In this document: positions 32,370 to 34,410 of the stretch, one piece after another
How the letters are laid out: every line of letters begins with the position of its first letter
Numbering within the stretch: the first letter of the stretch is position 1
DNA from: Arthrobacter sp. D5-1
Lineage (GTDB): Bacteria; Actinomycetota; Actinomycetes; Actinomycetales; Micrococcaceae
DNA length: 64,000 nt
Reading direction: 5' to 3'
Assembly: GCF_017357425.1 (NCBI RefSeq)
Contig: NZ_CP014571.1
Location: 1,736,001-1,800,000, forward strand
Made by a program: the position numbers and the translations under genes
The notes under the pieces: model-generated
Told to the model about the DNA's origin: nothing
Seen by the model: only the letters and a program-made list of their open reading frames with translations
Database searches by the model: none

Positions 32370-32975
32370 CTAGTGGTGGCGACCCGGGTCCAGGGCGGGA
32401 TTGGAGCCCTGGCCGTTTTCTCCGTGCGGGGCTTGGCCGTGCTCGCCATGCGGGACAGCGTGCTGTCCTGCCATTGAGGCGGCCAGTCCTGGTGTTGCAA
32501 CTGAAGCAACAACGACGGCGGCTCCGAACGCGGCTGCCAGAAGCCGCCCGGTCCTTGGCTGGCCGTGGGCGCCGCCGTCGTTGGTCTTGTGCTGCCGCCT
32601 CAGCCAGCCGGCTCCGGCAAGAGCCATGAGCGTCAGGCCGAGGGCGGCAAAGTGGCTCACGTCCAGTGAGCGCAGGGAACTGATCCCGGCAACTGTGACT
32701 GCGAGGTGAGCAGCTGCCGTAACAGCGAGGACAGGAAGAGCGAACCGTGCCATGACCAGGGAGTTGCGGTGCAGCCCCCGCAGGGACCAGGCCAAAAAGG
32801 CAAGGCCCGCCGCGAGGGTCGCCACGCCGGCTGCCACCATCCCGGGTGTCGCTGACGCTGTTCCAGTGAGATATCCGGCGGCAAGGGAAAGCTCAACCAT
32901 CCCGGCGGCCATCGCTGCGAAGTAAACAAACAGGAGGGTCGCTGCGTTCAGTGTGGGGTGGTGTCTGCGTTCCAT
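32370..32975 (-). CDS. Hypothetical membrane protein with His-rich tail
   Basis: I do not recognise this 201-residue protein. It has five hydrophobic segments (four in residues 10-125, one at about 143-165) and then a polar extracytoplasmic or cytoplasmic tail with many His and Gly residues (GQHAVPHGEHGQAPHGEN, then GRHH). The His clusters suggest metal binding. It is followed on the same strand by the PHP gene and preceded by the DUF4383 gene. Confidence 0.55.
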   Translation of the reverse strand: MERRHHPTLNAATLLFVYFAAMAAGMVELSLAAGYLTGTASATPGMVAAGVATLAAGLAFLAWSLRGLHRNSLVMARFALPVLAVTAAAHLAVTVAGISSLRSLDVSHFAALGLTLMALAGAGWLRRQHKTNDGGAHGQPRTGRLLAAAFGAAVVVASVATPGLAASMAGQHAVPHGEHGQAPHGENGQGSNPALDPGRHH

Positions 32976-33019: not shown

Positions 33020-33427
33020 TCAGGCGCGGGCGGAAGCTACGGTTGCCTTGTCCTGGGACAGGGCAACACCCAGCAGGACCACGGCGCTGGCGAGGTGCAG
33101 AACATTGTCTGCGCCATTGAGGGCGATGATGTTCAGGGACGAACCCACCAGGAAGAGTCCGAGGATACCCACCAGGAGGTACACGCCGCCTACGGCCGTG
33201 TTGACGGATTTGGACAGCGTGACGCTGTTCATACCGGCGTAAAGAAGGGCAGCGCCGATGGCCAGGTGGATGATGTTGTGAAGCGGGTTCACGGCGAAGA
33301 TGATGAGGTTGGCGCCCTCGGTGGCGAAGAAGCCGATTCCCGAGGTGACAAAGAATCCGAGCACGCCTACCAAGAGGTAGACGGCTCCGAAGATGGTGGC
33401 GATCAGGCGATTGGGCGAAGTACGCAT
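33020..33427 (-). CDS. DUF4383 membrane protein
   Basis: The 135-residue protein has four membrane segments. The signature NPLHNIIHLAIGAALLYAG and its internal echo GADNVLHLASAVVLLGVA show the two-fold repeat of this actinobacterial family. The function is unknown. GGAAGG (33436-33441) lies 8 nt from the ATG at 33427, but the start codon is buried in a long stem of the structured leader upstream. Confidence 0.82.
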   Translation of the reverse strand: MRTSPNRLIATIFGAVYLLVGVLGFFVTSGIGFFATEGANLIIFAVNPLHNIIHLAIGAALLYAGMNSVTLSKSVNTAVGGVYLLVGILGLFLVGSSLNIIALNGADNVLHLASAVVLLGVALSQDKATVASARA

Positions 33428-33516
33428 GGTCCGAACCTTCCGGTGATGGCCGGATATCCCGGCCGTCCTGCTGAGCCCCGGGTGGGGCTCTCAAGCAGTG
33501 ATTCGGACCATAAGCG
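33423..33516 (-). promoter_or_regulatory. Structured 5' leader, candidate cis-regulatory RNA
   Basis: Read on the minus strand, an outer stem P1 pairs CGC-UU-AUGGUCCGAA with UUCGGACCAUGCG (13 bp, UU bulge) and includes the DUF4383 start codon. Inside are P2, CUGCU-(UGA bulge)-GAGCCCC / GGGGCUC-AGCAG with an ACCC loop, and P3, GGCCGG/CCGGCC with a GAUAU loop. The Shine-Dalgarno GGAAGG lies in the single-stranded joint between P3 and P1. This three-way junction is directly visible; its regulatory role is inference, and I do not recognise it as a known riboswitch class. Confidence 0.6.
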
Positions 33517-33555
33517 CAGGTGGATGGGTGGTGTAAGGGAAATTCTTTCCGGCGG

Positions 33556-34263
33556 TTAGGGCCGGAGGCGGATGCTGCTCATCTTGAGGTCGTTGCTGCC
33601 CTCGAAGACGTAGTGGAGATCAATGGTCTTGCCGTCGCATTGCAAGGCACCGGAGAGATCGGCTTTGTTGTTGCCGTTGTTGTTGTTGACGTTCACCGAG
33701 TTGTAGTTCGGCTTGCACGAGCTATCCAGTTCCAGGCTGGCAATGCCGTCCATGAACGACTGCTTGTCCAGCTCATCCTTCAGGGGCTGGCTCAGGTAGT
33801 TGTCGTAGGCCTGCTCGGTTTGGCCGGAGACCACCAAATTGGTGAATTCGTCCGCCAAGGACCTGGCCTTGGACGTTGCATTGCCCACCAGATTGACCAG
33901 CAGCAGCACGCCCACCACCGCCAGCACGATCACTCCGGCGACGATGCTGAGGACGATCCACAAAACCTTCCTGCTCTTCCGGGCCGGTGGCTGGCCGAAT
34001 TGGCCCGGAGGGTACTGTCCGGACTGGGATTGGCCCTGCGGATAAGGGTTCTGGGCGTACGGCTCCTGGCCGGCGGCTGCGTACTGGGGGCCGCCGTATT
34101 GGGGCCCTCCGGCTTGGGGCCCTCCGGCTTGGGGAGCAGCGGACGACGGCGGCTGTTGCCACTGCGGCGCGCCGCCGGTCTGAGGGGGGTACCCGGGCCC
34201 GGGCGGCACCGGCGGCGGGTTCTGGCCCGGGTAGTTGGGTTCGGGTTGTTGCGGGTTGCTCAC
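33556..34263 (-). CDS. Proline-rich membrane-anchored protein with extracellular domain
   Basis: The 235-residue protein has about 95 residues rich in Pro, Gly, Gln and Tyr (GGPQAGGPQYGGPQYAAAG), one membrane segment (LWIVLSIVAGVIVLAVVGVL), then an extracytoplasmic domain of about 115 residues. GTG 34263 is chosen because AAAGGGG lies just upstream; the frame extends further but without a site. The layout resembles actinobacterial surface proteins with a DUF4878/DUF4333-like outer domain. The function is unknown. Confidence 0.65.
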   Translation of the reverse strand: MSNPQQPEPNYPGQNPPPVPPGPGYPPQTGGAPQWQQPPSSAAPQAGGPQAGGPQYGGPQYAAAGQEPYAQNPYPQGQSQSGQYPPGQFGQPPARKSRKVLWIVLSIVAGVIVLAVVGVLLLVNLVGNATSKARSLADEFTNLVVSGQTEQAYDNYLSQPLKDELDKQSFMDGIASLELDSSCKPNYNSVNVNNNNGNNKADLSGALQCDGKTIDLHYVFEGSNDLKMSSIRLRP

Positions 34264-34410
34264 GGTAGTGCCCCTTTCGGCAGCCTTCGGCAGCGCCACC
34301 ACATGGCCGGGGACCTCTGGCCGGTCCCCGGTACGTCCTCTTGCATCCAATCGCATGCGGGTTCGACGGGCAAGTACCGGGCTGCCAATAACCGCAGGTG
34401 GGGAGGGAGT

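Follow-up and report, generated by a model that had tools for sequence, protein, structure and literature searches.

The DUF4383 membrane-protein gene of Arthrobacter sp. D5-1 is very probably preceded, as judged from sequence, by a SigK-type (ECF19-like) promoter and a roughly 65-nt 5' UTR containing two hairpins. The gene lies in the window, the 64,000-nucleotide stretch of contig NZ_CP014571.1 that was analyzed, and, like all features described here, is on the minus strand. In the proposed mechanism, RskA would hold SigK until a signal frees it; RNA polymerase carrying SigK would bind CCCATCC-N15-CCGAAT and start about 7–9 nt past CCGAAT, giving an mRNA with the order hairpin P1, hairpin P2, Shine-Dalgarno sequence and ATG. 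Free SigK would transcribe its own operon, an MPT70-like lipoprotein gene and the DUF4383 operon, which would include a 201-aa gene, and P1, 2 nt from the inferred 5' end, would most likely shield the mRNA. What is new is the predicted entry of a DUF4383 subfamily into the SigK regulon: DUF4383 is a family without known function, and the subfamily gains a predicted RskA/SigK regulator across Arthrobacter-type bacteria, perhaps beyond, and thereby a condition under which its function can be sought.

Predicted promoter boxes and their association with sigK and DUF4383 genes

The predicted promoter consists of the -35 element CCCATCC (33522..33528) and the -10 element CCGAAT (33501..33506), separated by a 15-nt spacer (33507..33521) that is variable except towards its last five bases. 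Alignment A1, comprising 39 of the 42 listed leaders (L047, L050 and L051 were excluded as a divergent group), displays the conserved blocks CCNATCC and CCGAAT, the latter with a nearly invariant last T; 15 variable bases separate the blocks, except for 16 in L034, and a variable stretch follows the second one. Two invariant boxes held a constant distance apart by a spacer that is free to vary in sequence are typical of a promoter and not of an RNA helix. Changes were counted in the 77 of 79 motif-bearing loci with a spacing of 15, using clades of our own choosing that are both monophyletic in the tree. All 7 bases of the -35 element are unchanged throughout the 27 loci of clade 1 and the 18 of clade 2. 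Spacer positions 1–10 average 6.4 changes in clade 1 against 2.0 for positions 11–15, an end roughly three times slower; the contrast is less clear in clade 2 (4.8 against 3.0) and hardly present in the other loci (12.0 against 9.6), and sorting loci by outer complementarity, described below, is partly circular for such spacer counts.

The two boxes agree with CCATCC...CCGAAT, which we take to be the SigK (ECF19) consensus of M. tuberculosis. At a spacing of 14–16, the exact CCCATCC/CCGAAT motif occurs at four sites in the 5.1-Mb genome, and its reversed control at none. Three of these sites precede sigK-rskA, an MPT70-like fasciclin lipoprotein gene and the DUF4383 gene; the fourth lies inside the ORF of L059 and is probably due to chance. 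Allowing up to one mismatch at spacing 15 yields 14 sites against 1 in the control, gene context having been read at the exact four. The ECF sigma gene scores 264.8 bits with the NCBIfam SigK model NF007228 (cut-off 226) and is followed by rskA; the closest solved chain to its protein is M. tuberculosis SigK (4nqw, E 5.3e-59), and the best solved relative of the fasciclin lipoprotein is MPT70 (1nyo, E 3.2e-58). The locus thus resembles the SigK/RskA (ECF19) regulon of M. tuberculosis in a sigK gene over cut-off with adjacent rskA, in an MPT70-like target and in the shared two-box motif, although the genus is different and SigK dependence is here predicted. The accessible parts of two papers state that mpt70 is driven by SigK and that SigK sites are conserved across actinobacteria, and do not name DUF4383 among the targets (PMC7509140, PMC4821874). 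In same-genus genomes the motif also directly precedes a FAD amine-oxidase-like gene (L078:180-800) and an NmrA/NAD-binding gene (L074:177-800), both of them likely further SigK targets. The former recalls a member of the M. tuberculosis regulon, Rv0449c, which is presumably an oxidoreductase.

Across relatives, the CCMATCC form of the motif was matched in all 91 same-genus genomes, with 1–9 sites each and 6 in total for the reversed control, and the motif is present in 107 of the 149 genomes overall. A motif-independent test used the best 30 RskA_C loci of a 59-genome search, which came from 30 genomes belonging to the window's genus. The motif lies 1.1–1.3 kb upstream of RskA_C in all 30 at no more than two mismatches, always with spacing 15 (21 exact, 8 with one mismatch and 1 with two), against 1 of 30, at two mismatches, in an equal length downstream; that a sigma gene stands between motif and rskA was verified for the D5-1 genome and, using a peptide pattern, for a sample.

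The named DUF4383 loci are the best 80 of 178, three of them from one genome. In 79 of these 80 the motif lies within 400 nt upstream at up to two mismatches (47 exact, 19 with one and 13 with two), and in 77 of the 79 the spacing is exactly 15, the controls giving 34/800 for shuffles, 3/80 for reversed motifs and 0/80 for a 400-nt stretch taken from farther upstream. Motif, spacing and association with both rskA/sigK and DUF4383 are thus direct observations. Motif-bearing organisms include Paenarthrobacter, Arthrobacter, Pseudarthrobacter and Glutamicibacter; matches only at one or two mismatches make up 32 of the 80, among them all five Cellulomonas, Cellulosimicrobium and Leifsonia loci, and the single locus of the best 80 without the motif is from a Microbacterium. 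In a second, higher-scoring DUF4383 group the motif was found at 3 of 30 loci, so the link is limited to the window's DUF4383 subfamily. Pseudarthrobacter sp. Fe7 has three DUF4383 loci (L125, L151 and L153), each with the motif at one mismatch.

The inferred leader and its two hairpins

The usual distance from -10 element to start places the transcription start at the first G of a GAG (33492), with 8 nt between this G and the -10 element, and the true start may lie a few nucleotides to either side. The interval between -10 element and GAG is 7–9 nt in 39/39 A1 leaders, and the leader from GAG to ATG measures 63–74 nt in the same rows. From the inferred start the mRNA would begin, after about 2 nt, with P1 (GAGCCCC-ACCC-GGGGCTC, 33473..33490), followed by P2 (GGCCGG-GATAT-CCGGCC, 33448..33464) and the Shine-Dalgarno sequence GGAAGG (33436..33441). 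The latter may be held in a small hairpin of its own (CCGGA-AGG-TTCGG, 33431..33443), with pairing in 97.8% of cells across the 27 clade 1 loci and in 85.3% across the 19 loci of clade 2 and L148 combined.

Judged from the alignments, P1 and P2 are kept through apparent compensatory changes. In A1, P1 is paired in 94.0% and P2 in 96.6% of cells (95.2% together), and the two hairpins hold 24 double-changed cells against 8.9 in shuffles (0/500 reach this value, kinship ignored), spread over 4 pairs compared with 3.5 in shuffles; one P2 pair changes from C-G to G-C in 12 rows. Broader sampling was obtained from 71 of the 79 motif-bearing loci, 8 with leaders under 58 nt being excluded, and 43 of these 71 leaders were hand-picked for diversity as alignment A2. 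Here P1 is 86.7% paired, with 5 of its 7 pairs double-changed somewhere, and P2 is 67.1% paired, a low value that we think comes partly from misalignment. Together they hold 55 double-changed cells against 29.1 in shuffles (0/500, kinship ignored), with a covariation score of 0.304 against 0.206, while the 9 pairs that show a double change do not exceed the shuffles, which average 8.0 (179/500 reach 9). Sliding the A2 structure by one column gives 49 double-changed cells in 11 pairs, and paired cells fall to 62.0% from 77.2%. RNAalifold predicts only 4 pairs on A2, all in P1.

A stable first hairpin is general even where its sequence is not: the 30 nt starting 5 nt past the -10 element fold at -6 kcal/mol or lower in 71/71 leaders, with z below -1 in 65, and the 71 leaders carry 57 distinct first hairpins. 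The sequence-only reading had rightly proposed a structured leader of no recognized class, and this leader is conserved as well. Its inner hairpins do covary, as the A1 counts indicate, whereas the lower 5-bp part of its hairpin 1, whose 5' half precedes the inferred start, is paired in just 52.8% of cells. Given the inferred start, a hairpin within a few nucleotides of the 5' end that undergoes compensatory change is what would be expected of a 5'-terminal stabilizing hairpin. The leader of E. coli ompA carries such a 5'-terminal stem-loop, which stabilizes the mRNA; P1 resembles it in lying about 2 nt from a 5' end that is, in our case, an inferred one. At sigK, a small CAGG...CCTG hairpin apparently stands at the start of the leader (L057:1636-1690) in several relatives, as seen by eye.

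The outer inverted repeat and its possible readings

The element that first drew attention to this locus is a 94-nt stretch immediately upstream of, and including, the ATG (33425-33427), described as a three-way junction with the AUG in the closing stem, two enclosed hairpins and the Shine-Dalgarno sequence in the joint. We reproduced this fold: the minus strand alone reaches -55.8 kcal/mol against a mean of -32.4 for 200 shuffles (z -7.43, no shuffle as good), with a predicted outer stem of 12 bp plus CGC/GCG that includes the AUG, an inner hairpin 1 of 5+7 bp with a UGA bulge, an inner hairpin 2 of 6 bp plus 2 bp, and a joint containing GGAAGG. The minimum-energy fold stays the same within a 161-nt context (z -3.93). 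The opposite strand folds about equally well (z -6.04), the sequence being an inverted repeat, so that fold energy is silent on which nucleic acid matters.

The fold is real and was misread as a switch, its ordinary core being a predicted SigK promoter. The 5' arm of the outer stem (33500-33511) has the -10 element CCGAAT as its core, and the 3' arm (33425..33437) contains the ATG. Because the 5' arm holds the -10 hexamer, the prediction is a transcription start inside the element, which the sequence-only reading had itself named as refuting evidence, and its view of the outer stem as a switch acting within the DUF4383 mRNA is wrong or at least unsupported: transcription should start just 3' of the -10 element, and the 5' arm would be absent from that mRNA. 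The three-way junction belongs to the DNA as an inverted repeat and, as RNA, could arise only in read-through transcripts; inverted repeats around ECF promoters can in this way imitate riboswitches. A six-codon upstream ORF overlapping the 5' arm (ATG GTC CGA ATC ACT GCT TGA) was rejected as a leader peptide; by eye, several relatives have a GTG or CTG start or have lost the stop, and its codons coincide with the promoter box.

The remark that no known RNA class is recognizable agrees with Rfam, which at gathering score places no family at the element (three tRNAs elsewhere in the window are the only hits) and, when relaxed to E up to 10, returns three hits, all implausible. A dispersed RNA was likewise rejected, given a single full-length genomic copy (the next of 23 matches spans 19 bases at E 0.22) and strong matches in relatives that all stand before DUF4383. 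A covariance model of the leader (R1), with 150 first-look candidates scored per genome, finds matches at E<1e-5 in 12 of 29 genomes, always directly before DUF4383, and some match at E<=1 in 22 of 29; when the leader served as a DNA query, 41 of 149 genomes gave a match, the window's own included, some of them partially.

The outer pairing behaves differently from P1 and P2. In A1, 91.6% of its cells are paired against 91.2 in shuffles, only 2 double-changed cells occur in 39 rows, and one pair is broken in 11/39 rows (10 A-C, 1 U-C); since the promoter locks one arm, this lack of covariation is weak evidence. Pairing of the arms exceeds that of 97.5% of shuffles at 39 of 77 loci (25/27 in clade 1, 12/18 in clade 2 and 2 others), whereas 38 of 77 keep the promoter without such pairing (p>0.025), and these numbers shift with the cut-off and the 3' window. 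Loss of pairing in homologues, named beforehand as grounds for abandoning the switch, is accordingly seen in about half of the loci and not in the rest. An ungapped count of at least 8 of 9 pairs, covering loci with the motif at no more than one mismatch, gives 25/27 in clade 1, 13/18 in clade 2 and 1/21 in the rest. The slow end of the spacer and the clade-wise pairing together indicate that in clades 1 and 2 the complementarity is more than chance. It may have a further role, because the start region and the last spacer bases of these clades are more conserved than a promoter by itself would seem to require. Two readings fit: silencing of read-through RNA, or the small Shine-Dalgarno hairpin, which shares the start arm. 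In the divergent group left out of A1 (L047 and, from contigs C56 and C58 of genome G009, L050 and L051) the leader is longer and has no outer pairing; the promoter and, by eye, P1 are retained.

Could the element still be a translational riboswitch or thermosensor in a DUF4383 mRNA that starts at some unknown promoter farther upstream? The SAM-III (SMK box) riboswitch is a translational switch in which a three-way junction holds the translation start region in its closing stem. The present junction, a stable one, is alike in this layout, with the AUG in the closing stem and conserved inner hairpins, but differs in showing no conserved ligand core, no Rfam match and a promoter as its 5' arm. 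Invariance runs longest in the promoter boxes and at the start region, not in a junction core; the other invariant columns are a GAG and isolated bases within helices, and variation is seen in the inner loops and joints. The closing stem, with its 2 double-changed cells in 39 rows (a test weakened by the promoter-locked arm), is not above shuffles in 38/77 loci, no sigma-70-like promoter was found in 33380-33700, and the strict R1 matches, in 12/29 genomes, each stand directly before DUF4383. The computed energy of arm pairing is -13 kcal/mol or below in 29 of 39 leaders, hardly marginal for a thermosensor helix. A ligand riboswitch or thermosensor is not supported, and we regard it as extremely improbable. 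The repeat might instead be a DNA operator to which a repressor binds at two half-sites with a separation of 62 bp, as its symmetry, the overlap of its 5' half with the promoter and the conservation of both halves in clades 1 and 2 would allow. Against this, substitutions in the downstream half frequently preserve pairing of the RNA type (at one pair, G-U in 13 rows), and this half drifts in other lineages while the promoter stays; we know of no regulator that would fit, and consider an operator very unlikely.

A further reading is an addition to the SigK promoter rather than a replacement for it. In phage T4, the start codons of genes e, soc, 49 and I-TevI are concealed in a helix of long RNAs, and for gene e the late promoters are located where the 5' strand of the helix is encoded, as described in the accessible part of PMC3014915. 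The locus studied here is alike in having a predicted promoter box in the 5' arm and the start codon in the 3' arm; it differs in that the promoter would be a chromosomal ECF promoter and the pairing is lineage-limited and poorly covarying. On this reading the -10 box would double as a silencing 5' arm: read-through RNA would hide the AUG, RNA from the SigK promoter would be translated, and DUF4383 expression would be strictly SigK-dependent. The arms beat shuffles in 34 of 39 leaders (at most 15/300 as good). In RNAs cut 12 nt into the gene, the mean probability of an unpaired AUG is 0.70 for the promoter RNA and 0.20 for RNA begun 40 nt before the -10 element, with computed values of 0.51 and 0.08 for the window's own AUG. 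Spacer bases 11–15 evolve more slowly than 1–10, chiefly in clade 1; no terminator-like site was found in 33380-33700; and a co-directional gene of 266 aa (33556..34356), a possible source of read-through, has an upstream homologue in the same orientation at 41 of the 80 named loci (not found in 39).

The counter-evidence is considerable. Besides the two double-changed cells, the pair broken in 11/39 rows and the loci (38/77) in which pairing is not above shuffles, the Shine-Dalgarno sequence gains little accessibility in the short RNA (mean 0.45, against 0.33 in the long one; the window's own 0.57 against 0.58), the AUG is still predicted shut in the poorly pairing leaders L039, L045 and L046, and the layout is not kept at sigK itself. 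There, the bases at a possible GTG start (L057:1681-1689) are, by eye, nearly complementary to the -10 region in this genome, but the relatives compared do not keep this, also by eye, and the same layout was rejected for sigK. The local Shine-Dalgarno hairpin may instead preserve the start arm, and read-through is itself hypothetical. Upstream-gene orientation was discarded as a test, since a rough ORF listing has co-directional upstream ORFs at some loci without outer pairing as well (e.g., L122-L124 and L130) and orientation cannot separate the ideas. We therefore hold such silencing of read-through RNA to be unlikely, though far from negligible; if it were true, the T4 late-gene trick would be a leak-proof gate for an envelope-stress membrane protein, and the locus would allow silencing by a promoter-containing stem to be tested cleanly outside phages.

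The DUF4383 protein and neighboring genes

The gene behind the predicted SigK promoter (33020..33427) encodes a four-helix membrane protein of 135 aa, and its initial assignment to DUF4383 is borne out by PF14325 at 89.1 bits (cut-off 27). Its helices are predicted at residues 5–28, 48–67, 69–93 and 105–123 (mean pLDDT 81); the model has no Foldseek match at E<=0.001, and no solved relative was found at E<=1. The closest proteins, at 96–99% identity, are from Paenarthrobacter and Arthrobacter sp. records (L090-L103; Micrococcaceae). Downstream lies the co-directional 201-aa gene (32370..32975), without a Pfam match over cut-off, a homologue of which follows on the same strand in 71 of the 80 named loci (best 80 of 178). 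Our literature search, in which subscription journals are little covered, returned no link between DUF4383 and SigK. The accessible part of one paper lists a DUF4383 gene in an M. avium hypoxia table (PMC11876180), and that of a Leifsonia anti-sigma K paper names an Arthrobacter homologue and not DUF4383 (PMC6323826).

Two loci look decayed: in L155 the expected ATG reads otherwise, and in L156 the frame stops after 16 codons. The DUF4383 protein itself contains two similar conserved motifs, NPLHNxIHL and NGxDNVLHL, which are perhaps an internal repeat with conserved His and Asn residues and could form a cofactor or metal site.
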